A stretch of DNA of 64,000 nucleotides. Source: Medicago truncatula. Its lineage: Eukaryota; Streptophyta; Magnoliopsida; Fabales; Fabaceae. The notes beneath the pieces were generated by a model. That model had not been told where the DNA came from, did no database searches, and saw nothing but the letters and a program-made list of their open reading frames with translations. Location of the stretch: positions 1,514,501-1,578,500 of the forward strand of contig NC_053045.1 of the NCBI RefSeq assembly GCF_003473485.1, written 5' to 3'. Below are positions 10,989 through 64,000 of this stretch, in pieces (within the stretch, counting starts at the first letter, position 1; every line of letters starts with the position of its first letter). Made by a program: the position numbers and the translations under genes.

Positions 10989-13439
10989 CTACTGGTCCTG
11001 ATCCTGATGATGGTGCCTCCTCCTCGGCCTCTGGGCTCTCCTCCTGGTCAAAATCGGCGCGATCTGCTCCCTCATATGGGTCATGGCCTCAAACCACTGC
11101 TGAGGGGTCATGCTCATGACCTCCTTCTGGCCTAACTGCGCATCAGCGTAGGCAACAGCGCCACTAACCATGTCATAGGTGTCAGGCGAGCTTCTCGCCT
11201 CTTACCGCTGCCACTGCTCTGCAATGATCTACTCTTCATTTGCAGGCCTCGGAAGATCTCCTGGAATAGGTGGCAAGATCTGAGGGTGAGACACCCTAGT
11301 GTACCACAGGACATAGCCATCCGCCACCCGCGCCATGTATCCTCTCCTACCTGCTCACCCCGAGCGTCCGCCTTAAGCGTGTGAGTGCGGAAGTCGACGA
11401 ACATCTGCACAATGGAAGGCGGGGGGAGGTCCCTAACATCAGTCGGATGTCTGGGGATGGTCTGCACGTATCCGTACTGCCTCAAAACCCTCTCGGGCAA
11501 GTGACGGTACACCCTACGGACGCCGCACATAATCCATCCAGAATACCAGAAAACCTCCTCGAAGTCCTGGATCTCTCTGTGCTCCTCGTACGGCCGCCAG
11601 CATACATCATCTAACTGTATACGATCGAGCAGTGACCGATACGTGATCCCCTCCCCATGACCCTTTTGGAGCTTCCACCTCGCTGCAACCGGATAGTTTT
11701 CCAGGTAGTCAGTGTTGAGATCAACACTGAAAAACTCTGGAAAATGCGCCAAAAACCATGCCTGCACAAACCAAACAAATAACATTTATAAATTATTACG
11801 CACGGAAAAATATAACAAAAAATTAAAAGTTCACAAAATAATAAAGTTAACATAAATATAAAATTTCATTTTTCTTACAGTGAGCAGTGTCACGCTTCCC
11901 CCAAGCGCTCTGTGTCCAGGCCTACATGCATCCGTCAACTCGCCGTATAGGTAGGCGAGGGTCATAGCTCCCCAGGAATAATTACGCATCCCTGCGTAGC
12001 CGTCCGCCATGGTCGTCAAATATATCAGCTCGATGCGCTTGTTGCTTCTATCGCCAAACAACAAGCATCCGACCAAGTACAGAAGGTAACACCGGACGCA
12101 GTATGACCTGACCCTCGCCAGCTCCTCAACCTCCTCAGGATCCTCCGTATCCGCCAATACGTTGGCCCTACCAAGGTACGAGGTATAGAAGTCCCTCAGC
12201 CTGGGGTAGCTAATGTACCCACCGTACTCCTGGTTGCAGATCTTCTCAGCCTCATGCTGGGCCACACCCAGATACGTCATCAGCAGTGCCGCTCCCTCAT
12301 GCTTGGGCATCTTCTTCCCATGATCCAACATCCGCCCCTCAATAGGAAGATGCGTGAGACATGCGACATCATCCAATGTCACAGTCATCTCCCCCATCGG
12401 CATGTGGAATGTGCTGGTCTCAGGATGCCAGCTCTCGCATAAAGTAAGCAGCAGGGCATGAGGCACGGTGGAGTACCCCAAGTAGACCAAATCATGTAGC
12501 CCGCTCTGCTGAAGCGCATCCCAAAACCAATTCTCATTCCCGTTAGGGCGTCCGAGAGTGAGAATCTTCGCCCCATGATTAATCGGTTTAAGCACGCGGG
12601 TCTTACGAACCTGAAATAATAGAAAAATAAATATGGATATAATAATTAAACATAAAAACACATAACAGTGTATATAATAATTAAAAACACATATAAACAA
12701 AACAATTAAACATAAAAAATAGAATTAAAAAAATAAACATATAACAGTGTATATAATAATTAAAACAAACACACATTTAAAGAAAATAATTAAACATAAA
12801 GAAAAAGAATTAAAAAAAACACATATAGAGGTGGATATAATAATAAAAACAAACACACATTTAAAGAAAATATTTTAACATAAAGAAAAATCAATTAAAA
12901 AAAACACATATAAAAGTGGATATAATAATTAAACAAACACACATTTAAATTAAAGAAAATATTTTAACATAAAGAAAAAACAATTAAAAAAATACACTTA
13001 CATTATTTGAATTATACCAGAGTGGCAACGCCACATGACCGGCATAAGAGTGGAGCAAGGACAAGTCAGCCGGTCCACTAGGAAAGGGAGGGTCCGTAGG
13101 TAACACCTCCGGTGCAGCAGCTGCTGCAATGTCATCCTCGTCTCCTGCATCCTGCTTATGTGGTATATGATCCTGGTCATATCCACCATCCGTCACATCA
13201 TGTTGTACCTGATCCTGATAGTTCAGGTACTCCACCCCAGTCTGGTGAACAGGCTGTGACGGGTCAACAACCTGTGACTCTTCAGGCTGTGTAGCCTGAG
13301 AGCTTCCTGAGCCATCTCCCCTCCGACTTCTACCCCTCTTTGGGATGTGGCCGCTCTGTCTCTCCCTGCGGTGGCTCTGAGTCATGGCACGCCTACCACC
13401 AATCATCTTCGATGGATCAATGGGGTCCTGATCGACCAT
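10989..13439 (-). pseudogene. Plant mobile domain (PMD) protein gene, frameshifted; 'Ser/Thr phosphatase 7 long form homolog' type
   Basis: Exons: 13002-13439 (146 codons; hydrophilic, Ser/Gln/Asp-rich, basic RRERQ and RGRSRRG stretches), 11879-12610 (244 codons) and from 11761 downward. Splice sites are canonical. Exon 2 carries the PMD core: LHDLVYLGYSTVPHALLLTL, ESWHPETSTFHMPMGEMTVT, LDDVACLTHLPIEGR, then WGAMTLAYLYGELTDACR. Exon 3 continues AWFLAHFPEFF and LLDRIQLDDVCWRPYEEHRE. Near 11340 the natural sequence changes frame (MARVADGYVLWYTRVSHPQI lies in another frame). That frame then meets TAG near 11235 and TAA near 11205 before the C-terminal MTPQQWFEAM and the H/Q/D-rich tail ending at 10989. 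PMD proteins such as MAIN and MAIL1 act in meristem maintenance and silencing; transposon-borne relatives have no proven role. The gene is inside TIRs and looks recently broken. Confidence 0.85.
12650..12995. repeat. Diverged tandem repeat in PMD intron 1
   Basis: The phrase 'tataataattaaaa..aaacacacatttaaagaaaat' recurs about every 80-84 bases (near 12671, 12750, 12834 and 12918) with 'aaacataaagaaaaa' between. It is AT-rich and intronic. Confidence 0.65.
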
Positions 13440-14744: not shown

Positions 14745-14872
14745 TTGACTTAAAAATATAGACAAAAAGTTGTGATTGAAAATGTTCTATGGATTAAAAG
14801 TCAAAGGACAATTTTACATGGACTAAAATTAAAAGTTGATATATTTATAAGGACCAAAAACATATTTAACCT
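14320..14872. mobile_element. Candidate Mutator-like MITE next to the PMD element
   Basis: The left end reads gggttaacgtgttttttgtc. The reverse complement of the right end reads aggttaaatatgtttttggtcc, the same terminal family as the element at 22135-22658. Nine-base flanks aaaaaatta (14311-14319) and aaaaaatca (14873-14881) match at 8 of 9 positions, but they are A-rich. A (TA)n run at about 14686-14736 sits inside. The left TIR is weak. Confidence 0.5.
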
Positions 14873-15562: not shown

Positions 15563-15720
15563 GAGTTAAATATGTTTTTATCCCTATAAATATATAAAAT
15601 TTTTGTTTTAATTCCTCTAAAATTTTCCTTCGACTTTTAGTCCATGTAAAATTTTCAATCACTACTTTTGGTTCCTATTTTTAAGTTAATTCATGTATTT
15701 TTTTTAATGAAATGTGTAGT
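15563..15720 (+). repeat. Solitary Mutator-like terminal sequence
   Basis: Begins gagttaaatatgttttta and shares 'ttttagtccatgtaaaattttcaatcac' with the minus strand of 14740-14872. It is one end of the same family with no matching partner found downstream, so it is a truncated copy. Confidence 0.45.
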
Positions 15721-19854: not shown

Positions 19855-20982
19855 CAACACACACACACAAACATTGTGTCAGTGTTATCATGTATGGTCA
19901 GATGCATGTAACTATGTACATTTTTCTTCTTTTGTCCAAAAGTAAAATTCAGTGTTCTTTATCATTTTAGTATTGCTATATGGGTCATATTTTTAATTTT
20001 TAAATGGTTTTTACTTTGTACTCTATCAATTCCTGTGTGCAAATAAGGGTAAGGAACAAATGAATAGGTAGCAGGTTCTATGTTTTGGGTGAAACCAAGT
20101 TAAAATGAAATATGTTCAAAGTTCAATCTATTTATTCATTTGTTGGTCTCTGTTTGAAGAGTTTGATCTTGTATCTAAAGAGCCTGTGTTAAAAATTGAT
20201 TACCTATGCGTTTTAGATAAAATCTAAAAGCTTTACAGAACACAGATGAACCATGTTGCAACTGTGAAAATTGAACATAATGAAAAACACAATCAGAACT
20301 GAACTAACTGATGTTTGCACTTTCAGTTATGTAGCCTGATAGCAGAACTAGCATCAGCAGCAGCTAGTGAAAAGGGGTTAACGTTTGAACAAGCCATGGA
20401 AGACCGTTTGTGTGCGTACTCCCGAGCTGTTGCTCACTTTCCCACGGCAGTTAAGGAGGTAAAGATGAAACATTTATAATATTTGCAAATTGCAGACGTC
20501 GATTCAATATATTGCATATAACCATACTGATAATTTGAGAATAAATTAGAGGTGTGTGTACCTGCCATAGTTGTATGATGATCTAGGATCTTTAGTCGAC
20601 ACAAAGAAGAAAAGATTGTGAGAGAATTTTGTTCTTTATCCGGTGAGGTAGGTGGCTAAGCCAGTCTTATAATTCCCAGATGAGGGTAAAGAGACCTCTT
20701 AGCACTTGGCAGCCTAACCAAAGAATAATCCTATTCATCACATTTCATTCATTAAATAAAGCCCAATTGCAATATTCATTTATAATTAAGTGCATTGTTA
20801 TAAATAAGAATTTATATGGTTAAAAAAAAATATTAATGTTTTAATCAATATCTATGTTATGTTTGCAGTTCAAATGGAGGAATGGTTGGTTTTATGCTCT
20901 TTCTGAGAAGGCTATTGCCCAAGGCAAGCAGGATCCATGTCCTCTGCATACCAAATGGCTTAAAGAGTTGAAAATTGTATAA
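17380..20982 (+). CDS. Plastid-targeted Rossmann-fold protein, ketopantoate reductase (ApbA/PanE)-like
   Basis: Five exons: 17380-17686, 18698-18915, 19458-19586, 20327-20458 and 20869-20982, total 900 bases, 299 residues. The first ~40 residues are Ser/Thr-rich with few acids (SFSSTLTTTTATPLPKFRFR), a typical chloroplast transit peptide; an internal Met (VMAST, codon 31) could begin a cytosolic form. The mature part opens with a beta-strand and glycine loop, VIVGGGRVGKAL, of NAD(P)-binding type. Then come VCTRNDDLDSVL and VFFQNGMLEPWL, and a helical C-terminal half (KLIWICSVMLVGARHGGVSV, ELASAAASEKGLTFEQAMED) resembling the C-terminal domain of ketopantoate reductases and 6-phosphogluconate-dehydrogenase-like folds. 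No enzyme activity is established from sequence, and the usual reductase lysine/glutamate pair could not be placed with confidence. Intron 1 (about 1 kb) is filled with repeat sequence. Confidence 0.9.
17800..18360. repeat. MITE-derived sequence in intron 1, with a short tandem duplication
   Basis: The intron contains recurring 'aagctgaaaacagtttatg', 'ataagctcaaa' and 'caaacagtcacacacatgct' phrases typical of one abundant MITE family, related to the sequence at 38278-38545. Inside it, 'gagagcttttgaaaataagc' occurs at about 18211 and 18255, a direct duplication of about 44 bp. Ends are too diverged to delimit. Confidence 0.5.
19819..19872. repeat. Compound microsatellite (CT)n(TA)n(CA)n
   Basis: A run of tctctctc, then tatatata, then acacacac lies in the intron between exons 3 and 4 of the Rossmann-fold gene. 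Confidence 0.9.
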
Positions 20983-22134
20983 GACTTGAAATTGAACTCT
21001 CACGTGTCACTAGGTCACTAGCTTCTAATAGCTATATATGTGTAGACTTTTAGTGACTAGCTTGAAAGAGTAAATTAGTTACTTACAGGCTTGTAGAATT
21101 TATCCACATGTAGATAACGATGTCCATTTTCATCATATTAGTACTTCAAAACATTGTAGTACTCGTTCTTTGAAAAATAAATAAAATAAGATTTGTATTT
21201 TTTTTTTACATGAGATGAGAGGTTTTTTCTTTTAAACCTTTAAAACAAGTGTGGGGGCTGATATTGGTTGGGAGATGCTATCTTTTGTGGTCCTTCCCCC
21301 TCATATGCTTGCTACAAGAAAATTTTACTTCATACCCCCATTGATAATCCTTATACCTCCACATTTTCACCAAATTACTTCATACCCCTATTAGTTGATT
21401 ACTAAAACAAGTAAAGTAAATTGAAATTATTTGACCAAGTTGTTAATCTTATCTTATCTTATGTTTATATTTATCCAATGTGTAAAAGTGGCAAAATGTG
21501 AGAGATAAGAATCCGTGATGGAAGAAAAATGGGGTCCCGTACCCGTGCGCGTTCAATGTCAAAAACAAATAAGTGAGTTTTCCAAATTAATAATTTTTTT
21601 TGCATCCACCAATCTAAACAATCCACCTACGTACACTACCAGTATACTAATCCATCGTAAATAAGAGTATTTATTTTATTTTATTTTGGGTCTAAGTAAA
21701 TAAGAATATTTATTTCCTTAAAAAAACACTTTTTTTTAGGGAAAATAAAGAGTATTTATTATTCAGAGTAAAAAAAAAGAGTATTTTATTAGTATTATTT
21801 TTTAGCAACATAATGTGACAAATAGCTCGGAGGAAATGTTGAAAGAAAATTTGAATTTGTAGATAAATTCAAATGAGAGTTAAGATAAAAAGTGATAGAT
21901 ATTTTGATTATTATTATTTTTTTTTTATAGATATTTAGATATCTTAAATATTTGATCTCTAATGTTATATTATATATCAGCGTATGACCATATTTTGGGG
22001 TGCTTGCATTGCATTGCATATCAACTATGGATCTGAAATGAATCATCTGCTGCCTACTCCCTTCCTAACCTGTCTGCTCTGCTGCCACTTTATATGTCTC
22101 CTTCTCTCTTGTCATTACCTCCTCATTTATAATT
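20983..22134. other. 3' UTR and intergenic
   Basis: The first ~200 bases are likely the 3' UTR of the preceding gene ('aaaataaataaaataag' near 21173 could serve polyadenylation). The rest is AT-rich with no supported gene; open frames at 21795-22184 lack any recognisable domain. Confidence 0.4.
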
Positions 22135-22658
22135 GGGTTAAATATGTTTTTGGTCCCTACGTTTTGCACGATTTTGAGAATTAGTCCTTACATTTCAATA
22201 AATGTTTTTAAAATCCCTACATTTTTCCTGAGTTAGTGTAAATAGTCCATATTGTCAAATTTCTAACGTGATGCCAATGTTGACGGTTCAATCTCGCCGG
22301 AAAACGGCGAAGAACTTCACCACGAACTTTCTCCGCAGCTTCGTAGATGCGGATCGCCGGTGTTCCTCACACTTCCGGTGAAATATGTTGGTTTAGAGGG
22401 GAAGATTTGGAGGCCGAAAGCGATGATGTTATCGTTGAAAGCGCTTGTTGTTGCGGGTGTGGAAGTTGTTGTGGTGGAGATTTGGTGGGGTGGGGTTGAA
22501 CTTGTTATGATGGCCTGTGTTTCATCAACATGACACTGATGGCAGGGACCAATTGCACTAACGGAGAAGAAATGTAGGAATTTTAAAAACATTCATTGAA
22601 ATGTAGGGACTATTTTCAAAATCGCGCAAAATGTAGGAACCAAAAACATATTTAACCC
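22135..22658. mobile_element. Pack-MULE-like element with captured beta-amylase fragment
   Basis: The left end reads gggttaaatatgtttttggt then 'ccctac'. The reverse complement of the right end reads gggttaaatatgtttttggt then 'tcctac'. Similarity continues past 'aaaatcgtgc/cgcgcaaaat'. Flanking 9-mers are tttataatt (22126-22134) and tttttaatt (22659-22667), 8 of 9 identical, as expected of Mutator-like transposition. Length is 524 bp. The interior is distinctly GC-rich and holds gene-derived sequence. Confidence 0.85.
22306..22500 (+). pseudogene. Beta-amylase exon fragment inside the Pack-MULE
   Basis: One open frame of about 65 codons reads SPVFLTLPVKYVGLEGK, then IWRPKAMMLSLKALVVAGVE, then VVVVEIWWGGVE. 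This matches the start of the glycoside hydrolase 14 (beta-amylase) domain, where PVFVxLPxD, the KAMxxSLxALxxAGVEG helix and the WWGxVE strand are hallmarks. The element has K where the family usually has the LPVD aspartate, and V for the glycine in AGVEG. No intron is seen inside. The rest of the ~450-residue domain is missing, so it cannot be an enzyme. The source gene is not in this window. Confidence 0.8.
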
Positions 22659-23348
22659 TTTTTAATTTTTGGTTTCTCTCCTCACAGTTACGAAATCACC
22701 ATTTTGTTTTGTTAAGAGAACCATGTTACCAACTCTCTCAATATTACCGGTGTTTCTTCTAAAAAAAAATGCCTAAGGTGTGATTTATCTACCAATATTA
22801 AGTTGATTAAACACTTTTTTTTTTTATTTTTTTTTTTATTTTTTTTTTAAGGAAGTTGATTAAACACTTTTAATGGGATCTCTTTTTCCACTTACATTTT
22901 TCCTCCATGCATAAAACTTGAATCCCATAACTTATATATTTTGAATCCAATTATATTAATTAGATTATGATTTTCGCTGACTTCTAAAGATAAAGATACA
23001 TGTTAAAATACTCAAAAGAACAATTTGTATTGAAAAAAAAGTTTTTATATTATTAAAATTGATACAAGATTTTTAAAATAGAATTACTCTTTATAGTTCT
23101 TTGACATAAGATGGATGATCGAGGATACATATTAACATTTTCCTATATATATATATATATTATATACATTTAATTGATATCTACCATTAATATTAATGAT
23201 CTTTTACGCATCACAAATTCTCTCATTTTGATTTTTTTAAGGTAATTGAGATTATAGTTTTAATTATATGTACAAAAAAAATCTTAAATTTCTTTTTCAA
23301 AGGAAAAAAAATCATTAACCCAGCTGTCTATGAGAATTAAACTCTATA

Positions 23349-25190: not shown

Positions 25191-28126
25191 ATGGGTTCTA
25201 GAATTCCATCTCATCAGCTTAGCAATGGCCTATATGTATCAGGGCGGCCAGAGCAGCCGAAAGAAAGGGTTCCGACGATGACCGCAACGGCCATGCCATA
25301 TACCGGTGGAGACATAAAAAAGTCAGGAGAATTGGGAAAAATGTTTGATATTCCTACTGATGGCTCAAAATCTAGAAAATCTGGACCAATAACAGGCGCA
25401 CCATCACGAACAACATCTTTTGGAGGAGCCGGTTCACATTCCGGACCAATTCATCCTAATTCTGCTGCTCGGGCTATCTATACTACTTCAGGTTCCATGT
25501 CTATTGGTGGCGCGGCTGGTTCCAATTCACAAAAGAAATCTAATTCCGGGCCGTTGAGTAAGCATGGGGAACCGATTAAAAAATCTTCTGGTCCTCAGTC
25601 TGGTGGAGTAACTCCAACTGGACGTCAACATTCTGGACCTCTTCCTCCTGTTCTTCCGACAACAGGTCTCATTACATCGGGGCCTATATCATCTGGCCCG
25701 CTAAACTCTTCTGGTGCTCCAAGGAAAGTGTCCGGTCCTTTGGAAGCGACAGGTTCGATGAAGTTGCAAGGTTCTGCTGTTCCTGTTCACAATCAAGCTG
25801 TCACGGTTCTCAATCAAGGTGATGAATATTCCTTTAGAAGGAATTTTCCAAAGGCCATGTTATGGTTATTAATTCTGCTTTTTGTCATGGGTTTCATTGC
25901 TGGCGGTTTTATTCTTGGAGCCGTGCACAATCCTACTCTCCTTATTGTGGTTGTGATTCTCTTTGGCTTAGTTGCTGCGTCTTTCACTTGGAATACTTAT
26001 TGGGGAAGAAGAGCTATTATGGGCTTCATTGCCAATTATCCAGACTCCGAGCTTAGAACTGCAAAGAATGGACAATTTGTGAAAGTCTCTGGGGTAAGTT
26101 TTGCTTCTCTTGACTAAATTAAACTTCAAAGAAATTATATGATTGTCAAGCTAGAGAACATGATACTACTAATAAATAGCCTTTTTGGCTTCTTCAAAAA
26201 AATTAATAAATAGCCTTTACCAGTTTGGAGAAGACACTTAAGGCATCAATGACAAGGGTAGACTAGAGGAAGGATAGTTTGGTAGAGATAAAAGGTGATT
26301 GAGATAAACATAATGGTCTAATAGATTTAAATGGTCAAAATTGATAAGTTTTTAGATTTAAATGGTCTAATAGTCTATCATTAGACATGACTTGTGACAG
26401 GAAATTATGACGATGTTTGATACATGTAGCCGATCCCATTTAGCGAAAAAGGTCCTGGCAGTGGCTGTTATAGTTTCTTTCAGACATGACATGATCTCAA
26501 ACGAAACAAAAATATAAATAAAATAAGACAAAAATATCATCATGAACGGAGAGCCTTTAATTTGGTCTTGGCTGTTTGAAATAATTTTATTTTCATTGAA
26601 TGAGCTTCAAATGATACTTAATGATAGCATTTAGGTTTGTGTTCCTTGTTTGCACACTAAACCTCTGGAGCTGCTACTTTTATAAACTGTGACAGGTATC
26701 AGACACGTACTTGGTAACCGTACATAGTTGGCCCACCTGTGATATGTAATGATATATGCATCAAAATCTTAAAAATTAAAATTTGGCCCACCTGTGTACT
26801 TTTTTTATTCTTTAATACTGTGTTTGGTTAATACAATAGTTCTTTAAATTTTCATCATACTGTTTTTACAACAATCTATAATTATTCTACTCATTTTATA
26901 TTTAATGTTATCAGCGGTTTCAAATATTGGTGTCAGTTTTTAGGCTCTCCACCATGCCCAATTTCGACTGATATGGCAGGATTTTCCACCATAATCCGAT
27001 ATGACGGCACCACAAATCGGCCGGTGTGGCGGGATTTTGGCTCTCTGCCATGGACTGCCATCCGCCATCGATAACACTGAATGTTATTAATTTTATACTA
27101 TTAAATTAATGTATTATTTTCTTCCATCCAATTTTGTCATAAAGCAAATATATGTGCAGTATCACTATTATACTTCACTCATGTCTTATGTTGATTAGGG
27201 ATTTTCGAAGTAATATTTTGCCTCAGAACATCCAGTTATGTTGATGAGCAGCTTGCACTTGATTGGTTCAACATGTACACATCTTAGCAATTAATTACAA
27301 TAAATGACAGTAATGTTTGGTTGTGATACTGTAGGTTGTTACTTGCGGTAATGTGCCTCTAGAGTCATCTTTCCAGAAAGTCCCCAGATGCGTATATACA
27401 TCAACAAGTTTATATGAGTATCGAGGATGGGACTCAAAAGCTGCGAATCCTACACATCGGCGACTTTCTTGGGGCCTTAGATTGCTGGAAGTGAGTTACT
27501 TAATTTTTTATTATATTTTTAAAATACTTGTCTGATGTCTTATGATGAGATTTAAATACTTTAATGTCTTGTTGTTTTGAGAATATTACTTCTGTTTCAC
27601 TTGATTGACCGGGATATATGTCATGTGACAGAGGCGTGTGGTTGATTTTTACATCTCAGATTTCCAGTCTGGTTTAAGGGCATTGGTCAAGACTGGTCAT
27701 GGAGCAAGAGTGACCCCTTATGTTGATGACTCGGTTCTCATCAATGTAAATCCAACCAAAGAAGAGTTATCTCCAGAGTTCATTCGGTGGTTGGGAGAGA
27801 GAAATTTGTCAAGTGACGACCGCATCACGCGGCTGGAAGAAGGGTAACTTTTTTATCTATTTTTTGAATATATTAACTAACCTTATCTTGACCAAGAGAT
27901 GATATAACTTGTGTAACTTCTTTTTAAATTCAGGTATGTTAAAGAAGGAAGCACGGTGAGTGTAATGGGGGTTGTTCACAGGAATGAGAACGTGCTTATG
28001 ATTGTTCCTCCACCAGAGCCAATTACAACAGGTTGCCACTGGCTCAAATGTATTTTTCCTGCTAGCTTGGAAGGTATAGTCTTAAGATGCGAGGACACGT
28101 CCAAGAATGATGTCATACCGGTTTAA
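25191..28126 (+). CDS. Two-pass membrane protein of the At1g16860 type (uncharacterised)
   Basis: Four coding exons: 25191-26093, 27335-27490, 27632-27843 and 27934-28126, total 1464 bases, 487 residues, close to the ~474 of Arabidopsis At1g16860 as recalled. A leader intron runs from 23692 to 25099. The start codon opens MGSRIPSHQLSNGLYVSGRP, a conserved N-terminus in this family. Residues ~60-210 are a Ser/Gly/Pro-rich low-complexity region with repeated SGP motifs (KSGPI, HSGPI, NSGPL, SSGPL). Two hydrophobic segments follow (MLWLLILLFVMGFIAGGFIL; LLIVVVILFGLVAASF, roughly residues 223-265). A soluble C-terminal domain contains CGNVPLESSFQKVPRCVYTS and the conserved YVKEGSTVSVMG. The family is sometimes labelled 'ubiquitin-specific protease C19-related', but no protease motif is visible. 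Function unknown. Confidence 0.93.
26906..27073. repeat. Repeat in intron, hAT-like ends (weak)
   Basis: The left side reads tgttatcagcggtttcaaat. The reverse complement of the right side reads tgttatcgatggcggatggc. The inside is rich in 'ggcgggattttgg..ccatggactgccatccgcc'. No 8-bp duplication is evident, so the class is tentative. Confidence 0.35.
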
Positions 28127-62629: not shown

Positions 62630-64000
62630 AAACAACTTATTCAAAACAACTTATTTATATAAAATAGCTTATTAAGTCCTCATTTTCAAAAATCGCTTAT
62701 TCAAAACAACTTATTTATATAAAACAGCTTATTACGATCTCATTTTAAAAAACTGCTTATTCAAAACAACTTATTTATACAAAACAGCTTATGACGACCT
62801 CATTTTCAAAAACGGCTTATTCAAAACAACTTATTTATATAAAACAGCTAAACGGCTTATTCAAAACAACTTATTTATATAAAACAGCTTATTACGACCT
62901 CATTTTCAAAAACTACTTATTCAAAACAACTTATTTATATAAAACAGCTTATTACGACCTCATTTTCAAAAACTACTTATTCAAAACAACTTATTTATAC
63001 AAAACAGCTTATTACGACCTCATTTTCAAAAATGGCTTATTCAAAACAACTTATTTATATAAAACAGCTTATTACGACCTCATTTTCAAAAACTACTTAT
63101 TCAAAACAACTTATTACGACCTCATTTTCAAAAACGGCTTACTCAAAACAACTTATTTATACAAAACAGCTTATTACGACCTCATTTTCAAAAACGGCTT
63201 ATTCAAAACAACTTATTTATATAAAACAGCTTATTACGACCTCATTTTCAAAAACTGTTTATTCAAAACAACTTATTTATATAAAACAGCTTATTACGAC
63301 CTCATTTTCAAAAACTGCTTATTCAAAACAACTTATTTATATAAAACAGGTTATTACGACCTTATTTTCAAAACGGCTTATTCAAATCAACTTATTTATA
63401 CAAAACAGCTTATTACGACCTCATTTTAAAAAACTGCTTATTCAAAACAACTTATTTATACAAAACAGCTTATTACGACCTCAGTTTAAAAAACTGCTTA
63501 TTCAAAACAACTTAAATATATAAAACAGCTTATTACGACCTCATTTTAAAAAACTGCTTATTCAAAACAACTTATTTATATAAAACAGCTTATTACGATC
63601 TCATTTTAAAAAACTGCTTATTCAAAACAACTTATTTATACAAAACAGCTTATTACGACCTCAGTTTAAAAAACTGCTTATTCAAAACAACTTAATTATA
63701 TAAAACAGCTTATCACGACCTCATTTTCAAAAACCGCTTATTCAAAACACCTTATTTATACAAAACAGCTTATTGCAACCTCATTTTCAAAAAAAGCTTA
63801 TTCAAAACAACTTATTTAAGTTGTTTTGAATAAGTTGTTTTTAAAAAAGAGATCGTAATAAGCGGTTTTGCATAAATAAGCTGTTTTGAATAAGAGGTTT
63901 TTGAAAATGAGGTCGTAATAAGCAGTTTTGTATAAATAAGTTATTTTGAATAAGTGGTTTTTGAAAATGAGGTCGTAATAAGATGTTTTATATAAATAAG
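62630..64000. repeat. 60-bp minisatellite array that inverts at a palindrome (63801-63830)
   Basis: The unit is cttattacgacctcattttc + aaaaactgcttattcaaaac + aacttatttatataaaacag (60 bp), about 19 full or partial copies on the plus strand. Two truncated units interrupt it (near 62850 and 63105). At 63801-63830 a perfect 14+2+14 palindrome (ttcaaaacaactta-tt-taagttgttttgaa) reverses the orientation. From 63816 to the window end the units run on the minus strand ('aataagcagttttgtataaa'). The array continues beyond the window. Long open frames through it (up to 212 codons) exist only because the period is divisible by three. Confidence 0.93.

Follow-up and report, generated by a model that had tools for sequence, protein, structure and literature searches.

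The window, a stretch of 64,000 nucleotides of Medicago truncatula DNA, lies at C4:1514501-1578500 in a genome of 429,922,655 bases on 42 contigs. It contains a 524-bp element at 22135-22658, as laid out in Table 1. An earlier note had described an element of this size with matching ends, and its ends, coordinates, and length were all exact, with terminal inverted repeats (TIRs) longer than it had stated. The element is located about 1.1 kb past an apparent gene end near 20,981 (judged by eye), and an open frame at 25191 begins 2.5 kb beyond it. Elsewhere in the window, two frames at 11135-12724 on the minus strand match the plant mobile domain PF10536 (7.9e-16 and 1.3e-27) and possibly belong to a transposon-related gene. 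Long overlapping open frames of a short repeated peptide at 62749-63523 on the plus strand point to a tandem repeat.

Table 1. Parts of the element in the window and its flanking duplications
Feature	Positions	Strand	Remarks
Left target-site duplication	22126-22134	.	TTTATAATT; paired with the right 9-mer
Left TIR	22135-22248	+	114 bp, 86.8% identical to the right TIR
Open frame	22267-22530	+	88 codons, spans the captured part; no sign of selection
Donor block 1 (GH14 exon 1)	22285-22500	+	85% over 228 aligned columns to the C8 donor gene; 12-nt deletion at 22314/22315
Donor block 2	22497-22517	+	42-nt in-frame deletion after block 1, 4-nt overlap; 67/67 short copies
Donor block 3	22516-22542	+	After a 32-nt frame-shifting deletion; 67/67 short copies (34 nt in one)
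Right TIR	22546-22658	-	113 bp
Right target-site duplication	22659-22667	.	TTTTTAATT; 1 mismatch

The structure is that of a Mutator-like element (MULE). TIRs of at least 50 bp were taken as the mark of a MULE, with a library threshold of 100 bp at 80% identity as in PMC3310237, and the TIRs of this element are above both. MULEs also produce target-site duplications of 9-11 bp, for which up to two mismatches were allowed. The flanking 9-mers agree at 8 of 9 positions, a level reached by a fraction of only 0.0008 of random local 9-mer pairs (18 of 22,496), which bears out the near-perfect duplication reported earlier. The 297-bp interior is made up of a short repeat-adjacent stretch and the captured fragment and has no transposase coding, as is expected of a Pack-MULE. 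Its G+C content is 48%, compared to 32-34% in the inverted repeats and 23-29% in the flanks.

The interior matches GH14 beta-amylase. Among solved chains the best match was BAM1 (8j5d, E=1.2e-7, and 1.8e-7 in a repeat search). The Smith-Waterman score was 117, whereas the maximum was 42 for 1000 dinucleotide shuffles and 41 for 419 other stretches of the window. Pfam Glyco_hydro_14 gave E=0.003, under the Pfam cut-off, and this match covers positions 2-43 of the 402 in the profile. The catalytic domain of a functional beta-amylase spans about 400 profile positions, far more than the fragment holds. The earlier note had counted 65 codons of GH14 and had held that a protein search with no similarity to beta-amylase would speak against capture. 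The similarity was confirmed by the BAM1 match, but the captured part is larger than those codons and is interrupted by three deletions. The frame is still open, as had been claimed, but an equally long open frame was found in 380 of 1000 shuffles of the interior. Its length is therefore not unusual and is, by itself, no evidence.

The donor gene

When the genome was searched for GH14, individual exons were matched separately, with 39 matches in all. The parent of the fragment, which the earlier note had proposed to look for among the beta-amylase genes of the same genome, is a gene with several GH14 exons on the minus strand of C8 (L137, C8:46383500-46389500). Its similarity to the element continues past the first block of Table 1 with 21 bases at 95% and 27 bases at 93%, while, among 30 GH14 loci compared, the others match the element at only 73-76% over 38-49 bases. 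Thus, like a Pack-MULE, the element contains a piece of a host gene that is itself found in the genome.

The donor sequence also settled a point about the encoded residues. It had been suggested that the aspartate of LPVD was changed in the element. The donor (LPVKSVGLEGKIWRPKAMM) itself has LPVK; therefore, the LPVK of the element was inherited and no aspartate was lost there. The proposed change of a core glycine is real in the window copy, where GVEG became GVEV, and Gly is kept at this site in the three subfamily consensuses whose frame is intact.

The loop of the donor reads HGTDGD. Among the other GH14 loci, it reads GGNVGD in five and GGNIGD in one (eight loci scanned, one of them without a match). 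The BAM10 clade, which is absent from Arabidopsis, is described as having a heavily substituted GGNVGD loop and features of an inactive enzyme (PMC6394054). From a comparison of the loop with the published description, we infer that the donor is probably BAM10-like. With HGTDGD in place of GGNVGD and LPVK in place of LPLD, the donor may be a BAM10-type, non-hydrolytic protein.

Copies of the element and their stepwise shrinkage

The genome was searched at the protein level with the 88-codon frame. All 74 candidates were scored. Of the 73 matches obtained, 68 belong to elements, four to other GH14 genes, and one to the donor exon. The count of 68 is a lower bound because the first look of the protein search may miss decayed copies. 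In a DNA search of the genome, all 40 of the 293 candidates that were scored were copies of at least 470 bp with 91-100% identity. All 68 element copies were retrieved, and they comprise 67 short forms and one long form (L136, 1,270 bp). The earlier reading of a Pack-MULE-like capture of beta-amylase is supported by the structure, the donor, and the copies, but the element in the window belongs to a family with at least 67 short copies and is not a single captured element.

The short forms are uniform, with a length of 523-525 bp in 57 of 67. Their 9-bp duplications are perfect in 54 and have at most one mismatch in 61 and at most two in 62; the 54 perfect ones, with an A+T content of 94%, have 53 distinct sequences. 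When grouped at a cut of 5.5%, the short forms fall into clusters of 24, 20, 7, and 7 copies, with about 97% identity within clusters, and nine single copies. Being short, non-autonomous, of uniform length, and present in many near-identical copies, they have the features of MITEs.

Ends of this type are common in the genome, where 3,815 sequences differ from the element's first 22 bases at no more than two positions (1,909 forward and 1,906 reverse) and a reversed control gave none. Among the 100 ends listed, there were 16 inward-facing pairs, 12 of which span 499-506 bp. Two elements, L141 (C1:10634584-10635084) and L142 (C1:30037177-30037676), represent another MITE-like family, about 500 bp long and flanked by perfect 9-bp duplications. 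They have only the terminal 25 bp in common with the amylase-carrying family and no captured amylase exon, their one match to the donor locus being 26 bp of AT-rich sequence outside the captured part. The fragment is thus a property of one family among others with these ends. In the window, two further ends that resemble the element's first 25 bp were seen at 14848-14871 and 15565-15586; they point away from each other and so belong to two further, separate elements. No match to the element ends was found in viral contigs or in prokaryote genome contigs, and of 24 stretches of viral contigs that fit the pattern of the encoded fragment none was confirmed.

The earlier note had also asked for copies with and without the fragment, and it reasoned that a fragment present in all members of an older family unrelated to gene capture would count against its reading. 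This is half of what was found. The fragment is in every member of this family that was read (67 short and one long), yet the family was itself born of gene capture, and L141 and L142 have the same ends without it.

The TIRs of the long form L136 (C6:29243532-29244801) are those of the short forms, and its duplication, TTTATTCTT, is perfect. From the donor, L136 retains the start codon, the greater part of exon 1, and 26 nt at the beginning of intron 1; the intron sequence means that the captured material was genomic DNA and not spliced mRNA. Two further long relatives, L138 and L139, have the region of the donor start codon and lack the exon part of the short forms, and a 46-nt deletion just past the donor start codon is common to all three. 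L136 has deletions of its own and lacks some donor sequence that is present in the short forms, which makes it a cousin and not their direct ancestor. In a tree of the fragment, in which 33 of 60 inner branches are weak, a 97/88 branch separates the donor and L136 from all 67 short forms. As a separate observation, the right part of L136 (positions 1360-1800, C6:29244239-29244679) has no convincing donor match. Over a piece of 170 columns it has 83% similarity to C1:34292080-34292243, which may be a second source of captured DNA; a search for such a source did not identify the C1:34292080 stretch as a gene.

All 67 short forms have the 42-nt deletion, and 66 of them have the 32-nt deletion, which is 34 nt in the last one. 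The third site differs among copies. By direct recount of the 67 short copies, 12 nt are lost in 55 (including the window copy) and 10-11 nt in nine, while three have lost nothing (L061, L064, and L066, of 535-536 bp). The two sizes of loss indicate that further shrinkage and amplification took place in no fewer than two lineages.

These observations are best explained by a non-autonomous Mutator-like element that acquired DNA from a beta-amylase-like gene, was reduced stepwise, and amplified as a MITE-like form, to which we assign a probability of roughly 0.93. The element would have taken genomic DNA of one such gene, including its start codon, the larger part of exon 1, and the beginning of intron 1. 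Stepwise loss of internal pieces would have led to a MITE-like element of about 535 bp and then to one of 523-525 bp. This reduced form, represented by 64 of the 67 short copies, would have been multiplied by a transposase supplied elsewhere, presumably of the MuDR type, and its small size may have aided amplification.

Selection on the frame and alternative explanations

The expectation that the frame probably evolves neutrally was examined by counting distinct mutations within the frame against each cluster consensus, with expected numbers from the element's own mutation spectrum and the nine single copies excluded. The four clusters (58 of 67 copies) gave 101 nonsynonymous, 42 synonymous, and 3 nonsense mutations compared to 99.3, 38.7, and 7.9 expected, an N/S ratio of 0.94. 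For the 51 copies left after removal of the frame-shifted cluster, the numbers were 86, 32, and 3 compared to 84.8, 30.2, and 6.0, an N/S ratio of 0.96. The expectation held: the frame evolves neutrally, and the captured piece behaves as neutral cargo, most likely without a protein function.

It is very unlikely that the frame encodes a small protein kept by selection, and this reading was rejected because the substitution tests were near neutral. It could draw on the intact frame in 50 of 67 copies, on the fact that two of the three deletions in the window copy are multiples of three, and on the low number of stops in the 51 copies (P=0.15), a deficit that leaves a little room for weak constraint. 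On the other hand, intact frames in 50 of 67 copies are what recent bursts would leave, the N/S ratios in the other two frames were 1.10 and 0.84, and a cluster of seven copies was amplified even though its consensus has a frame shift. Also, in the three consensuses whose frame is intact, the first Met is not reached until codon 53. It is more improbable still that different elements captured this one gene independently, several times over. This possibility was raised since ends of this type are abundant, and nothing in the data speaks for it, while the 42-nt and 32-nt junctions common to all the short copies (the latter 34 nt in one) and the 46-nt deletion common to the three long relatives go against it.

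Another possible explanation is that the family serves as a source of small RNAs, in which case siRNAs made from hairpin or read-through transcripts of many copies would silence the donor or tune its activity. Of the 67 copies, 66 have one or more exact 21-mers in common with donor exon 1, the window copy 34, and the longest run identical to the donor is 43 nt. The whole element also folds back strongly (z=-16), though the inverted repeats alone account for this, and siRNA reservoirs have been described among the capture elements of maize (PMC13317346). These matches to the donor are expected by descent alone, however, and cover only 66 of the 540 donor 21-mers. The 43-nt block is not unusually invariant: of 216 windows taken across the fragment, 34 show as little variation. 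We regard this role as unlikely, although less so than the other two alternatives. Slightly less likely again is its fullest form, in which an amplified, gene-capturing MITE family would be a genome-wide small-RNA reservoir tuning a single, probably catalytically inactive BAM10-like gene. If true, it would be a dispersed trans-regulator built of captured exon pieces.

Comparison with known elements

Capture followed by stepwise shrinkage and amplification, the reading we prefer, makes the family Pack-MULE by origin and MITE-like now. Both kinds are well known, and this is a clear but ordinary case of gene capture. Pack-MULEs of rice and other plants likewise have long TIRs, 9-11-bp duplications, and a captured host fragment without transposase (PMC3310237; PMC13317346). 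In contrast to them, the element here is very small, and at least 67 short copies have the same cargo. The PM-ZIBP Pack-MULE family of tomato is also a multi-copy family with one captured gene fragment, comprising 13 tandem-TIR copies and one single-TIR copy (PMC3310237). It was amplified as the larger tandem-TIR form, whereas amplification of the present family accompanied shrinkage.

MuTAnT of M. truncatula is likewise a short, non-autonomous, MITE-like MULE with 9-nt duplications and bursts of two subfamilies (PMC4486113). It differs in its ends (search mask GGGGTTTGCTAGAACA) and in targeting TA microsatellites, and the main text of that paper does not mention Pack-MULEs or capture. Pack-TYPE transposons are non-autonomous DNA elements that also contain captured coding DNA; their clusters exceed 100 elements in maize, where the largest are hAT and PIF and not Mutator (PMC8903248). 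The main text of that study does not mention Medicago, Glycine max, soybean, legume, or Fabaceae. In our literature search, four forms of the end sequence were found in no paper, and one wording, with the Greek-letter spelling covered, found no paper that joins Pack-MULE and beta-amylase.

The usefulness of this example lies in its staged series and its copy number. With the donor, a long form, 535-bp intermediates, and amplified short forms in one genome, each stage of the change from Pack-MULE to MITE can be followed. A single donor gene with dozens of dispersed, near-identical matches also provides a clean case for studying a possible effect of captured fragments on their donors by way of small RNAs.
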